A stretch of DNA of 64,000 bases from Pseudobdellovibrionaceae bacterium (lineage in GTDB: Bacteria; Bdellovibrionota; Bdellovibrionia; Bdellovibrionales; JAMPXM01), in the NCBI GenBank assembly GCA_947462815.1, contig CANHQR010000011.1, positions 1-64,000 of the forward strand. The letters run 5' to 3'. Of the stretch, positions 50,712 through 56,208 are shown in pieces. The notes below the pieces were generated by a model that saw only the letters and a program-made list of their open reading frames with translations, was not told the origin of the DNA and did not search any database. How positions within the stretch are numbered: position 1 is the stretch's first letter; every line of letters starts with the position of its first letter. The position numbers and the translations under genes were made by a program.

Positions 50712-50824
50712 ATCGGAATGGCCCTCTCTCTTCGGTTCCTGACGCTGCTTTTGTGGCAGGTCTGTTGGGTCGGAGTTCTCGCGACTTCGAAGGCGCTTCT
50801 TGGAAGCTCCTTCATGGAGGCTCA

Positions 50825-52708
50825 ATGATAGCGCGATTGAAATCGCATCGGCGACTTGAACAACGGCTGAGCGACTGTTCCGCTGTTGTGTGGAAGTCGG
50901 GTCGCCGGTTGATAGCGGCCGCATCTCTCGTTGTCATGTCGGCCAGCTCGGCCTCCGGTGCGGGATCACGCGATGGTCTCGTTTTGCGCCACCTCGAAAA
51001 GAACACTATAGAAAATGCGGTTGGGATCTATCTCACACCGAAGGGAGAAAGGTACTTCGCCGAAAATCTTGAGCGTGTTCTCGACAACACAGGATTTTCA
51101 ATTCGTGAGGCTTACTTCCCGGTGTTGAATTGGCGAGCGGAGGCTCCTATCAGCCTCGAACACATGGCGACCGGCAACCCTGAAATGCAAGCGACCATGA
51201 CGCGAATTCGTCAGCTCCTCAGTGAATGGTTTCGTGGACTCAATGTTCAAGACCCTCAGCCGGAGGTCACAGTTCGAGGGGCCGGCTATCGTCTGAAGTT
51301 TTCGAAGCTCGCTCTGGTTGCCGATCGTCAGCTGCAGGGAATTTTGCGGCGCCAGGGTGGGGCGGTTCTCGCTCTTGAGGCTGAAATTCATGAGCTTGAG
51401 GCGGGCGCGGAGGTTGTCGCGATTCGCGATCCCCAACGTAACCCTTATCTCGGAACCTTGGGCGCCAAAGAACCCAATCTGAAAATGCGCCGTAATTCAC
51501 CACCGGTGAAACTGCGTCTGCCCTTCTACGTGAACGTCGCTGCCAATCGCAGCTTGCAGGTGGAGTCTTTACCGATGTTTTCGACCTTCGCGAGCGCCGA
51601 TTTTGACCTTCGCTACGCGGATTTGTTGGCGCCCCGAATTACCTTACAAATTGATGAACAGCTCTTTGAGATGAGTCGCGAAACCTTAATTCGCAATTTC
51701 GAGCAACACAAAACCAAGATTGTCGATCAACTCAAGATCATGCTCGATAAAATCGTGAAGACGTCTTTGCCAGAATCAATCAACGAAAAGTTGACCCAGC
51801 TGGTTCCTCAGCACCTCGAGCAAGTCAGTCCCCTTTCGCCTCCTGGTAAAGACGAATGCTCGAGTGACGCGGACTTTCTTTGGGGTCTCATGTTGCGTCG
51901 AGTATCCCTCACGCCCGATGTTCTGGCGTTGGAGCTTGCGGCGTATATTGAAGATCCCTCGCGTCGGTCGCCACGACCAGAGGCTTCAGCCATGGCTCGA
52001 GGAGCGGCGAATCTCGCGGGTACAGATCCCAAAACCTACGATTTGGCGATGACGATCAATCGCGGTTTGATCAATCGAATCCTGCAGCTTTCGCACGGAC
52101 GTGGTTACTTTGATCGATTAGATCTGGGAGACGGGGAGACCATCAAGCTTTGGAAGGCGCCGACGGTTGATCTCGATCCTTCGGCAGGCAACTCACCTCG
52201 CGAGTTCGCACAGTTGCGAGCCAGCATCGGTGTAGAGAGTGAAGTTTCCGGTTTCATGGAGTCTTTGGCCACTTCGGGCCCTGTGCGAGTGACCTTTGAT
52301 ATTTATGGTCGCATTTATCCCAACCCGACCGGTGGAAAGGGTTTGCGAGTCCGAGCTGACCGAATTGATGTGGCTTCCGTGCGAGTCGAGCGGTCCTCGC
52401 TCTCTTGGATCGGTGCCATCTTCAGTGGTTCGGTCGAGTCGGCGGCTCGCAAAAAGGTCCAAGCAGCTGCCGCACAACTTGCGGCGAAGCCGGCCGAGAT
52501 CCCTGCGGACATCGATTTACCGCCCGAGTTCTTCGGTCAGCGCTTGCAGCCGAAGGGCCTGCGCGTGGATCGGAACGGTCACTTGACGATGCTTTTGGAT
52601 TTTGGACCGATCACTTATAATTCAGTGCGCCCGCTCTCGGCGGCTGTCGGCAATCAAGAGGAGGCACGTCGCTTGGCTGCATTGGCCCGACGTTGTGCAA
52701 GTCGATGA
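50825..52708 (+). CDS. Large exported protein, possibly TULIP/BPI-like lipid-binding
   Basis: A 627-residue exported protein. ATG 50825 has GGAGG 4 bases upstream; the signal core LIAAASLVVMSASSASGA follows. The mature protein looks like two related halves. Each mixes long beta strands (LRLPFYVNVAANRSLQVESL, VRVTFDIYGRIYP) with an amphipathic helix, and the second has DLAMTINRGLINRILQLSHG, resembling the swap helix of BPI/LBP proteins. Near each half's end is a Lys/Ala-rich helix (HKTKIVDQLKIMLDKIV; ARKKVQAAAAQLAA). A TULIP fold that binds lipid in the periplasm is a hypothesis, not a recognised match. It is coupled by ATGA to the gene at 52705. Confidence 0.7.
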   Translation: MIARLKSHRRLEQRLSDCSAVVWKSGRRLIAAASLVVMSASSASGAGSRDGLVLRHLEKNTIENAVGIYLTPKGERYFAENLERVLDNTGFSIREAYFPVLNWRAEAPISLEHMATGNPEMQATMTRIRQLLSEWFRGLNVQDPQPEVTVRGAGYRLKFSKLALVADRQLQGILRRQGGAVLALEAEIHELEAGAEVVAIRDPQRNPYLGTLGAKEPNLKMRRNSPPVKLRLPFYVNVAANRSLQVESLPMFSTFASADFDLRYADLLAPRITLQIDEQLFEMSRETLIRNFEQHKTKIVDQLKIMLDKIVKTSLPESINEKLTQLVPQHLEQVSPLSPPGKDECSSDADFLWGLMLRRVSLTPDVLALELAAYIEDPSRRSPRPEASAMARGAANLAGTDPKTYDLAMTINRGLINRILQLSHGRGYFDRLDLGDGETIKLWKAPTVDLDPSAGNSPREFAQLRASIGVESEVSGFMESLATSGPVRVTFDIYGRIYPNPTGGKGLRVRADRIDVASVRVERSSLSWIGAIFSGSVESAARKKVQAAAAQLAAKPAEIPADIDLPPEFFGQRLQPKGLRVDRNGHLTMLLDFGPITYNSVRPLSAAVGNQEEARRLAALARRCASR

Positions 52709-53319
52709 AACGTACAAATGCTCTTTGGATCCATGTTTCCATTCTTCGTTTTGCGTGTCGCTCGGCTTCTCTTGCTGGCAATCGACAGGCCTTGCTGAAA
52801 TTCAGTGTCGTGGCAGCCCTTGTGTTGGGGAGCCTCCTCGCCAGCATATCTGTGTTGCCGAGTTCCGCTTCTGCACAGAACTCCTCGGCACCCCCCACGC
52901 GCACAGAGAAAATTCGCGCCTTGCAAGTTGAAAACTTGAATGCGTACCAAGGAAAGTTCCTCACGGTTTTGTATGCCATCGGTTCGAAGCCTGTGCTGAG
53001 CACGGATAACCGTCAGACGGAACTGACGGAGATTCGCGCCGTACACAGCGTGCCGATTCAAAACGGCCGAGCCATGATTCCGAGCGTGAGTTTGCCCATC
53101 GTGGGTTTCCGTCCCGCCTACAACTTCGTGATGTTTGTGGTGCACGAGCAGCGCGACTTTGTTTGGACCAATACCACCAGTCTACCTCGCGATCCGCGTG
53201 GCCTTGTGGCCAATGAGTCGAACACCTTGTCTCTTCGAGTCGCGGCTCTCACAAAGTCACAGCTGGAGCGCATCGCGGTCGAGCAGCCGAACTCGGCGGC
53301 GTTGCTATTGTCGTTTTGA
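52705..53319 (+). CDS. Secreted protein coupled to the possible TULIP-like gene
   Basis: A 204-residue exported protein of unknown family. Its ATG overlaps the stop of the previous gene (ATGA at 52705-52708). A signal peptide is visible (VVAALVLGSLLASISVLPSSASA, cut after ASA near residue 58); the N-region is long, so an internal start is possible. The mature part is beta-rich (GKFLTVLYAIGSKPVLS, AMIPSVSLPIVGFRP, FVMFVVHEQRDFVW). The tight coupling suggests it is a partner of the upstream protein. Confidence 0.68.
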   Translation: MKRTNALWIHVSILRFACRSASLAGNRQALLKFSVVAALVLGSLLASISVLPSSASAQNSSAPPTRTEKIRALQVENLNAYQGKFLTVLYAIGSKPVLSTDNRQTELTEIRAVHSVPIQNGRAMIPSVSLPIVGFRPAYNFVMFVVHEQRDFVWTNTTSLPRDPRGLVANESNTLSLRVAALTKSQLERIAVEQPNSAALLLSF

Positions 53320-53443: not shown

Positions 53444-54778
53444 GTGAACTCATCGTCAGGCGATAACTCGGCTTCATCAGGCAACTCAACTTCAGGCAAA
53501 GCATTGTCAGGCTCGTCGGGCGAGTCCAAGGGAGCTCGACCAAGTCTCAAGGCGCGCTTGTCTTCGCCACTCACGGCGATCTTCATGATCGTGGCTGTGG
53601 ATGTTTTGGGTTTCACCATCATTCTCCCGCTGCTGCCTTTCTATGCTGAGCAATTTGGCGCCTCGCCCTTTGTTGTGGGTGTTTTGGCGACGAGTTTTGC
53701 TTTTTGCCAATTTCTGAGTGGTCCTTGGCTCGGTCGTCTGTCGGACCGCTTCGGTCGAAAGCCTGTGTTGATGGTTTCACAAACCGGAACGTTGATTGGT
53801 TTTCTGGTTTTGGCTGTCGCCAATAGTCTGCCGCTCGTCTTTCTATCGCGAATCATCGATGGAGTGACCGCAGGAAATTTGAGTATCGCTCAGGCGGCCA
53901 TTGCGGATGTCACCGCACCCGAGAAGCGCGCGCGGGCCTTTGGCATTATCGGTATCGCGTTTGGGTTAGGTTTCTTGATTGGCCCGGGCATCGCAGGCCT
54001 TCTTTCGAAAATCGATCTGCATGCGCCGGCATATTTCGCGGCGGGCTTGTCGGCGCTGTCGATCTTCCTGACCTGGCGATTTCTTCCCGCGCCGCCGACG
54101 CGGGCGAACTCCGAACTTTTGGCAAAGGGATTGGGTTCCTTGCGCCATGCTTTTTCCCGCCCAGCTTTGCGATTGCTGTTGGCGGAGTTCTTCGTCTTCG
54201 GATTGCAGTTCGCAGGTTTCACATCGGGCTTCGCGCTATTTGCGAGTCGCCGCTTCACATGGGATGGTCATCCCGTCGGCCCGGCCGAAGTGAGCTGGCT
54301 TTTCACCTACATGGGGTTTTTGGGACTGATTCTACAAGGCTTTTTGCTCGGTCCCTTGGTCAAACGCTTTGGTGAAGCTCGTTTAGTTTGGGCGGGCTTT
54401 GCGACCTCGGTGGTGAGCTATACCATGCTCGCCTTTGTCACGGACCTGCCTGGATTGCTCATCGCCATGACCATCGGCGCGTTTGGCTCCGGCGTTTTGC
54501 GACCGGCGCTCACCGCTCTGGTTTCACAAGCCGCAGATCCTCACGAACAGGGAACCGTCTTAGGTGCGACCCAGTCTTTGGTTTCTTTAGGTCAAATTCT
54601 TGCGCCTCTGATTTCAGGTTGGATCATCGGCCTCGGCGATTCTTCCCCGGGTTTGTTGGCTTGGTGGGGTGGTTGGATGGCGATTTTGTCGTTGATCGGT
54701 GTGTTGATGCGCTCAACGGCCTTGGGCCCGGCCCCCCACGAAAAGCCTTCGAGTTCGCCCCCGGCGAATTCGCGCTGA
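53444..54778 (+). CDS. MFS drug-type exporter (TetA-like, 12 helices)
   Basis: A 444-residue major-facilitator transporter. After a Ser/Gly-rich start of about 45 residues, 12 membrane helices begin with AIFMIVAVDVLGFTIILPLLPFYAEQFGA (in pieces). The family loop motif GPWLGRLSDRFGRKPVLM (helix 2-3) and VTAGNLSIAQAAIADVTAPEKRARAFGIIG (motif C region) are typical of TetA/DHA1 drug exporters. The start is GTG 53444 with weak support; an internal Met could serve. The last 155 bp overlap the 3' end of rsmI on the opposite strand. Confidence 0.9.
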   Translation: MNSSSGDNSASSGNSTSGKALSGSSGESKGARPSLKARLSSPLTAIFMIVAVDVLGFTIILPLLPFYAEQFGASPFVVGVLATSFAFCQFLSGPWLGRLSDRFGRKPVLMVSQTGTLIGFLVLAVANSLPLVFLSRIIDGVTAGNLSIAQAAIADVTAPEKRARAFGIIGIAFGLGFLIGPGIAGLLSKIDLHAPAYFAAGLSALSIFLTWRFLPAPPTRANSELLAKGLGSLRHAFSRPALRLLLAEFFVFGLQFAGFTSGFALFASRRFTWDGHPVGPAEVSWLFTYMGFLGLILQGFLLGPLVKRFGEARLVWAGFATSVVSYTMLAFVTDLPGLLIAMTIGAFGSGVLRPALTALVSQAADPHEQGTVLGATQSLVSLGQILAPLISGWIIGLGDSSPGLLAWWGGWMAILSLIGVLMRSTALGPAPHEKPSSSPPANSR

Positions 54779-55580
54779 AAGCTTTTGAATTCTCGTATTT
54801 TTTTGATTTGTGGTCTGAGCTTTTGGTCGAATTTCCGGGATGCAGCGGATGTGCCGGATACAGCGGGTGGAGTAAGATCATAAATTCAGCCTTGCGCTCG
54901 GCTTCGGGTCGCTTCATCCAAGAGGCCAGAAGCTCTGTGAGTTTGGCTTGTAAAACAAGTTCGTCCGAACAGGTGAAGTTTGTACCCAGCGTGGCCACTC
55001 GTTGAGGAGCACGCTCGGCCAATTCCTCCAGCAGACGTTGGAGGCGATAGGGTGTATCCATCAAAACTTGTGCACGCGAGTCCCGAACGACTTCTGTGAG
55101 CTTTTCTTGTCGAGCTTCGCGTTCAGCTGGCGGAAAGCCGACAAAGTTGAACTCTCGAAGCTCGATGCCCGAAAGGGCGAGTAAACACATGAGGCTCGAG
55201 GCCCCCGGAATCGACGTCACACGACCGCCGAGGGCGCGCCATTCGCCCACGAGTTTTCCACCGGGATCGCAAAAACCCGGCGTTCCGCAGTCGCTCACCA
55301 AGGCGATTCGCGATGCAGCAGGGAGCGCACGCATGCGTTCGAGGAGCTCCGTCCAATCCGTGTCGCGCGTATGCTCATTGAGCACAGCGAGTTCAGAGTC
55401 CTGTTTTCGCTCGCGCCCCAGGCGTTTTAAGAGTGTCGTGAGCTCGCGCCACTCTTCGCCGATGACGAGTTCGGCCTCTCGCAGAAGTTGAGCGGCTCGT
55501 GGTGACAAGTCATCCGCCTGGCCGATCGGAGTGGCCACGACATAAAGTTCAGCGAGGGGGCGATTTTGGGCGTTTGTCAT
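54624..55580 (-). CDS. rsmI: 16S rRNA 2'-O-ribose methyltransferase RsmI-like
   Basis: A SAM-dependent tetrapyrrole-methylase-fold enzyme that methylates C1402 of 16S rRNA. Landmarks: LYVVATPIGQADDLSPRAAQLLREAELVIGEE (in pieces), ALVSDCGTPGFCDPGGKLV and VTSIPGASSLMCLLALSG, then FNFVGFPPAER and VLMDTPYRLQRLLEEL. The core is normal, but an 80-residue Ser/Pro/Lys-rich tail, read antisense through the end of the MFS gene, extends it to 318 residues (E. coli RsmI is 286). ATG 55580 gives MTNAQNRPLAELYV; a longer frame to 55655 would overlap the Nudix gene start. Confidence 0.88.
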   Translation of the reverse strand: MTNAQNRPLAELYVVATPIGQADDLSPRAAQLLREAELVIGEEWRELTTLLKRLGRERKQDSELAVLNEHTRDTDWTELLERMRALPAASRIALVSDCGTPGFCDPGGKLVGEWRALGGRVTSIPGASSLMCLLALSGIELREFNFVGFPPAEREARQEKLTEVVRDSRAQVLMDTPYRLQRLLEELAERAPQRVATLGTNFTCSDELVLQAKLTELLASWMKRPEAERKAEFMILLHPLYPAHPLHPGNSTKSSDHKSKKYENSKAFSANSPGANSKAFRGGPGPRPLSASTHRSTTKSPSNHPTKPTNPGKNRRGR

Positions 55581-55629
55581 CTTGCGGCCAAACTGGACGA
55601 AGCTCCGCCGGATGGTCAAGCTCAGTCCT

Positions 55630-56208
55630 ATGACCATGCAAGATAGTCGGGCCAAACTGATTCGGCCAGGAAATTGGAAGACTTTGGAAAGCCAATATCT
55701 TTTACGAGCAGGCTTGCTTTCCCTTCGCGAGGATCGGTGTGCGCTGCCGGATGGACGAGTCCACCCGCGCTACTTCACTCTCGAGTTTCCCGATTGGGTG
55801 AATGTGGTGCCCATCACCCAAGAGGGTCGCATGGTGCTGGTGGATCAGTATCGACATTCAGCGGGCGAGGCCCACCTCGAGATTCCGGGGGGCTCCGTCG
55901 AACCAGGTGAAGAGCCCATGCGAGCCGCGCTTCGAGAACTGATGGAAGAGACAGGCTTTGTTCCGGAAAATCTGGTGCTCGCGGGACGACATCGACCCAA
56001 TCCCGCGATGCAGAATAACAGCATGTGGACCTACGTCGCCTTCGGCTGTCGACGTCAAGGCGAGCCGACACCCGATCCTTTCGAAGATCTGCGCGTGCAT
56101 CAACTGGCTGTCCCAGATGTTTATGAACGACTTCGCGCTGGAGAAATTTCTCACAGCATCGTTGTGGCCTCTTTGTTCTATGCGATGCCCATGCTCGGCA
56201 TTCGCTGA
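55630..56208 (+). CDS. Nudix hydrolase, ADP-ribose pyrophosphatase-like
   Basis: A 192-residue hydrolase of nucleoside-diphosphate-linked compounds. The Nudix box GGSVEPGEEPMRAALRELMEETGFV is complete (G-x5-E-x7-REUxEExGU, given here in family notation). FTLEFPDWVNVVPITQEGRMVLVDQYRHS before it resembles ADP-ribose pyrophosphatases. The fold fits NudF-like enzymes, but the substrate cannot be fixed from the sequence. ATG 55630 or ATG 55636 may start translation; rsmI begins 50 bp away on the other strand, sharing the promoter region. Confidence 0.9.
   Translation: MTMQDSRAKLIRPGNWKTLESQYLLRAGLLSLREDRCALPDGRVHPRYFTLEFPDWVNVVPITQEGRMVLVDQYRHSAGEAHLEIPGGSVEPGEEPMRAALRELMEETGFVPENLVLAGRHRPNPAMQNNSMWTYVAFGCRRQGEPTPDPFEDLRVHQLAVPDVYERLRAGEISHSIVVASLFYAMPMLGIR

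Follow-up and report, generated by a model that had tools for sequence, protein, structure and literature searches.

Two-domain TULIP proteins of the BPI type are best known as lipid and endotoxin handlers of animals. The group formed by LBP, BPI and CETP (PF01273/PF02886) is eukaryotic, secreted and built of two domains, and in the BPI-type interface, as set out in Levine 2019 (PMC6791001), each domain is preceded by one extra strand and followed by two. The same paper predicts DUF4403 (PF14356) to be a full-length pseudodimeric homologue of BPI in bacteria, and this family was the only full-length bacterial counterpart of the BPI type found in the literature searched. Other bacterial members of the superfamily include P47, OrfX2 and OrfX3, with two TULIP-like domains, and the envelope-located YceB (DUF1439) and LmeA (DUF2993), each with one TULIP domain and with a link to lipid handling in the literature.

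Here, we describe a pair of coupled genes in the window (the whole stretch of DNA analysed, 64,000 nucleotides), which comes from a bacterium related to predatory Bdellovibrio. The first gene encodes a predicted two-domain TULIP, hereafter protein 1, and the second a smaller partner, hereafter protein 2. Protein 1 resembles LBP, BPI and CETP in its export, in giving its best structural match with them, in aligning with them over its full two-domain length, and in its repeated elements with interface strands; it differs from them in being bacterial, in its longer chain (~540-690 aa in most members), in having a coupled partner gene and in the lack of any detectable sequence similarity. With DUF4403 it shares a bacterial origin and, by prediction, the full-length pseudodimer of the BPI type (PMC6791001), whereas DUF4403 is ~460 aa long, has no such partner described in that source and does not match protein 1 by HMM. 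The sequence-only reading of this DNA had held bacterial TULIPs of such size to be unusual, a view that needs correction given that DUF4403 was already predicted in 2019 (PMC6791001).

The OrfX/P47 group likewise combines a bacterial origin with two TULIP-like domains, and OrfX3 and P47 give significant Foldseek matches to the model of protein 1; these matches are, however, much weaker, the genetic setting is another one, and the domains of the group stand side by side (PMC6791001). YceB and LmeA, bacterial like protein 1 and located in the envelope, as protein 1 probably is, differ from it by their single domain and, for YceB, by being a lipoprotein, and no match to either was seen here. Because the sequence of protein 1 falls under the definition of neither BPI/LBP/CETP nor DUF4403, we class it as a new TULIP family.

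Coordinates, start signals and leaders of the gene pair

Both genes are real, and homologues of both, ~30% identical over their length, are found in the same order. The features of the pair are collected in Table 1.

Table 1. Features of the gene pair, in window coordinates
Feature	Position	Strand	Basis
Shine-Dalgarno-like GGAGG, 4 nt 5' of the protein 1 ATG	50816..50820	+	Sequence reading
Protein 1 CDS, predicted two-domain TULIP (BPI/LBP-like), 627 aa	50825..52708	+	ATG-start ORF; AlphaFold2 model and Foldseek; Bdellovibrionota homologues
Predicted Sec signal peptide, protein 1 residues 1-46, site ...SASSASGA|GS	50825..50962	+	Hydropathy; A-x-A-like site; relatives share the hydrophobic leader
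Predicted N-terminal TULIP domain and interface strands, residues 62-376, long helix 285-326	51008..51952	+	DSSP of model, Foldseek; residues 89-154 of low confidence
Predicted C-terminal TULIP domain, residues 407-593, helices 413-425 and 534-554, family-invariant N417	52043..52603	+	DSSP of model, Foldseek, invariant column in alignment A5
ATGA stop/start overlap linking gene 1 and gene 2	52705..52708	+	Sequence
Protein 2 CDS, exported beta-rich partner without known family, 204 aa	52705..53319	+	ORF; family alignment A6; adjoins protein 1 in 52/54 genomes; low-confidence model

Neither protein has a lipobox; each starts with a basic n-region, then shows a hydrophobic stretch and an A-x-A-like site, and a hydrophobic N-terminus is present in 42 of the 44 protein 1 members and in all 27 protein 2 members (the two proteins of the window included). 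The n-region of protein 1 is unusually long, and a GTG at residue 22 offers an alternative start with a standard leader; the ATG start is preferred because of its ribosome-binding site. The sequence-only reading had claimed an exported protein of 627 residues, with which the open reading frame and the signal-type leader agree, as well as an ATGA-coupled second exported protein of unknown family, a description upheld by the overlap, the leader and the absence of any match between the protein 2 sequence and known families.

In the window, a hexapeptide-repeat acyltransferase gene lies upstream of the pair and an MFS transporter gene downstream, and neither is kept beside the pair in any of the relatives examined. 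The MFS transporter gene (53444-54778, + strand) is convergent with a tetrapyrrole-methylase (RsmI-like) ORF (54624-55655, - strand), the two overlapping by 155 bp; this ORF has ~100 residues C-terminal of its Pfam domain.

Predicted fold of protein 1

The AlphaFold2 model of protein 1, built from 7 aligned sequences, is of moderate confidence (mean pLDDT 63.7, pTM 0.60) and weak at residues 1-56 and 89-154, and two of the five models were poor (pLDDT 39-43). When the model was searched against the PDB using Foldseek, six matches were obtained at E<=0.001, all of them TULIPs, namely two LBP chains, CETP, BPI, OrfX3 and P47. The matches to LBP (4m4d, 2.1e-11), CETP (2obd, 1.9e-9) and BPI (1ewf, 2.3e-9, target TM 0.51) have a probability of 1.00 and ~590 alignment columns that take in both domains of protein 1, and they are followed by OrfX3 (8bgm, 2.5e-5) and P47 (6ekt, 5.7e-4). 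Takeout came next among the weaker matches, and then CD1/MHC-like chains (probability 0.3 or less) interspersed with JHBP and SPLUNC1, which are TULIPs and scored higher probabilities. The structural search is not promiscuous, as both controls were silent: the protein 1 model gave no match below 1e-3 among viral structures (BFVD) and revealed no viral relative, and the protein 2 model gave none below 1e-3 in the PDB.

The predicted fold of protein 1 is that of a TULIP, and since the LBP, CETP and BPI matches span its full length, protein 1 is likely to be a pseudodimer of the BPI type. Whole-chain TM-scores against the BPI group are modest (0.31-0.51, with a large rmsd), as would be expected when the orientation of the two domains is not confidently modelled. 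The structure prediction and structural search that the sequence-only reading had proposed thus placed LBP, CETP and BPI first, and the unrelated fold that would have spoken against a TULIP was not seen; the comparison with BPI/LBP/CETP profiles that it had also proposed gave no sequence match to PF01273/PF02886 or to the PDB sequences of that family.

The same order of elements is repeated in both halves of the model (62-376 and 407-593), namely a strand, a helix, a sheet, a long helix, a strand and two further strands. According to DSSP, the N-terminal half comprises strand 62-70, helix 72-88, the sheet, the long helix 285-326 and strands 332-337, 351-362 and 367-376, and the C-terminal half comprises strand 407-412, helix 413-425, the sheet, helix 534-554 and strands 557-563, 572-581 and 586-593. 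This order agrees with the BPI-type interface described in PMC6791001. The two similar halves announced from the sequence are therefore present in the predicted structure, but not in the sequence itself, where profile-profile comparison detected no similarity between them (hhalign probability 0.2%). As to the swap-helix-like segment announced with them, no specific swap helix was found; the two halves of the model are joined through a long helix (285-326), a strand and a Pro-Gly linker.

A conserved N-terminal motif, AVxVxITPrGxxYF, sits in the first strand and helix of the protein 1 family, and we take it to resemble the start of BPI/LBP; a short profile of the motif searched against the PDB did not retrieve BPI/LBP, and the likeness is a lead only. 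In the 44-member alignment, the sole invariant column is N417 (codon 52073-52075), an asparagine that belongs to an 'INR' motif; the motif lies in the helix that comes first in the C-terminal domain.

At the sequence level protein 1 matches no family in Pfam, NCBIfam or the PDB, and neither single proteins nor family profiles retrieved a TULIP there. The DUF4403 HMM (PF14356) did not match protein 1 of the window at E<=1, PF14356 is not among 25 of the 31 Pfam families matched by the 44 members of the protein 1 family, and the same HMM found nothing in 97 Bdellovibrionota genomes, that of the window included, in a search where no positive control gave a signal.

Distribution of the pair and linkage of its two genes

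Protein 1 is present as one copy in its own genome, and its relatives in Bdellovibrio genomes are 28-32% identical over ~560 residues. It occurs in 11/11 genomes of the Bdellovibrio genus (g20) in the first homologue search, in at least 24 genomes of this genus among the matches listed from the order-wide profile search, and in none of 12 other genomes from the family to which the window belongs; the order as a whole therefore does not depend on it. Profiles retrieved the family in 38 of the 141 genomes of the order and in 106 of 291 Bdellovibrionota genomes (weakest E ~1e-4 to 1e-6), these sensitive searches having covered Bdellovibrionota genomes. A tblastn search of plasmids found nothing. 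A pattern scan of GTDB genomes gave no match with the window protein alone and, with the alignment, matches in Bdellovibrio-type genomes only, a restriction that stems from the choice of patterns and does not prove that other genomes lack the family. In a maximum-likelihood tree, protein 1 of the window adjoins that clade of its order which contains Bdellovibrio (92/90), and vertical descent with losses fits this tree better than recent transfer.

Protein 2 forms an exported family in its own right (alignment A6), for which the model is beta-rich and of low confidence (pLDDT 56.5). It was found in 54 of the 291 genomes and adjoins protein 1 in 52 of them; of the two exceptions, one lies at a contig end (L082) and the other is a stop-containing remnant (L081). 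In the latter (L081:4387-4827), protein 2 stands without protein 1 and its matched region is interrupted by an in-frame stop, which looks like a remnant after the loss of protein 1. In 47 retrieved loci, among which three places occur twice, protein 2 follows protein 1 immediately and on the same strand. The spacing is mostly -23 to +54 nt, and among the loci other than that of the window it is exactly -4 in 12; two larger apparent overlaps reflect upstream alternative starts. The pair is conserved across the phylum, being retained while the flanking genes differ between lineages.

Several loci carry only protein 1, and in some lineages protein 1 is duplicated in tandem and protein 2 is missing, so protein 2 is not universally needed. 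The tandem protein-1-like genes (L073-L075, L079 and L084; spacing ~-7 to +10 nt), beside which no protein 2 was found, belong to other Bdellovibrionota families and possibly encode a hetero-pair of two-domain TULIPs. Other arrangements include protein 1, protein 2 and protein 1 in a row (L060:4364-8502) and two protein 1 genes with a 4 nt overlap (L062:5694-9346). In one clade, a similar protein is encoded directly downstream of the pair on the same strand (L068, L069 and L071) or downstream of protein 1 (L070), and the copy tested, that of L071, has a weak HTTM match. An MlaD-type gene, an ABC ATPase and a permease-like gene (MCE lipid transport) were observed ~2 kb from the pair in L066 (1402-3628); this cluster was rejected as a functional link, since it was met in one locus only and is encoded on the opposite strand.

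A putative periplasmic lipid carrier and the alternatives

We favour, with a fair degree of confidence, a reading in which protein 1 is a periplasmic two-pocket lipid carrier working with protein 2 as a dedicated beta-rich subunit, and the pair is probably an unrecognised periplasmic lipid-carrier system. Protein 1 would be exported by Sec and probably reside in the periplasm, where its two rolled helix/sheet tubes, built like those of BPI/LBP/CETP, would meet head to head via a central beta sheet. From the predicted fold we infer a lipid pocket in each tube, able to hold acyl chains. The most likely ligands would be envelope lipids (phospholipid or lipid A/LPS-type), which protein 1 may carry or present between the two membranes, inner and outer, on either side of the periplasm. 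Protein 2, presumably co-translated with protein 1, would most likely form a complex with it and dock, stabilise or load the carrier.

A TULIP scaffold could also serve a purpose other than transport, with protein 1 and protein 2 having a structural or assembly role, for example in outer-membrane protein or polysaccharide assembly. The ligand of protein 1 is a prediction, and some Bdellovibrio loci (L014) have a gene with a weak outer-membrane-barrel match just upstream, which would suit such a role; lipid binding is, however, a general property of the TULIP fold, and the barrel-like neighbour has no conserved fixed position, so that we regard this explanation as unlikely.

It is also quite unlikely, in our estimation, though an attractive idea, that protein 1 is a predation factor, released or displayed at the surface and acting on the outer membrane of prey as BPI does. 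It would bind LPS or lipids of the prey, thereby loosening the membrane or harvesting lipid, and protein 2 would deliver or anchor it. BPI ranks among the closest matches by structure and is an LPS-binding protein that damages the outer membranes of Gram-negative bacteria (PMC5507252); the family, moreover, is common in Bdellovibrionota and occurs in each of the 11 Bdellovibrio-genus genomes mentioned above. Against this, there is no sign of secretion beyond the periplasm, and lysis, adhesin and secretion genes are not consistently linked to the pair.

An arrangement of the OrfX/P47 type, with TULIP-like domains side by side and a complex-forming function rather than a transport role of the BPI type, would draw on the rank of OrfX3 (2.5e-5) and P47 (5.7e-4) as next-best Foldseek matches and on the fact that OrfX3 also complexes with a small partner (OrfX1-OrfX3, from the title of the PDB entry). 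Yet the LBP, CETP and BPI matches are better by 4 or more orders of magnitude, and Pfam P47 neither matches protein 1 of the window nor appears among the families listed for the 44 members, and we consider this arrangement very improbable. That the model is wrong and protein 1 belongs to an unrelated exported alpha/beta family, as a shallow alignment, a medium confidence and no sequence-level support might suggest, is hardly credible when every significant match is a TULIP and the controls are silent.

The family bears on the origin of the BPI architecture, as it would be a second bacterial BPI-like one, unlinked to DUF4403 by sequence, endowed with a constant partner and outside Pfam and NCBIfam. 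The literature searched, which covered few subscription journals, contained no account of such TULIP proteins in Bdellovibrio. The supply of lipids to Bdellovibrio during growth inside prey is poorly understood, and the pair offers a tractable candidate for the movement of lipids across the envelope in this organism. We would give a rather low chance to the broader proposal of a previously undescribed, Bdellovibrionota-wide two-protein lipid system, in which a BPI/LBP-like carrier for the bacterium's own or its prey's LPS or phospholipid works with a dedicated exported subunit; if true, a Gram-negative predator would be using the very fold that animals deploy against Gram-negative membranes.
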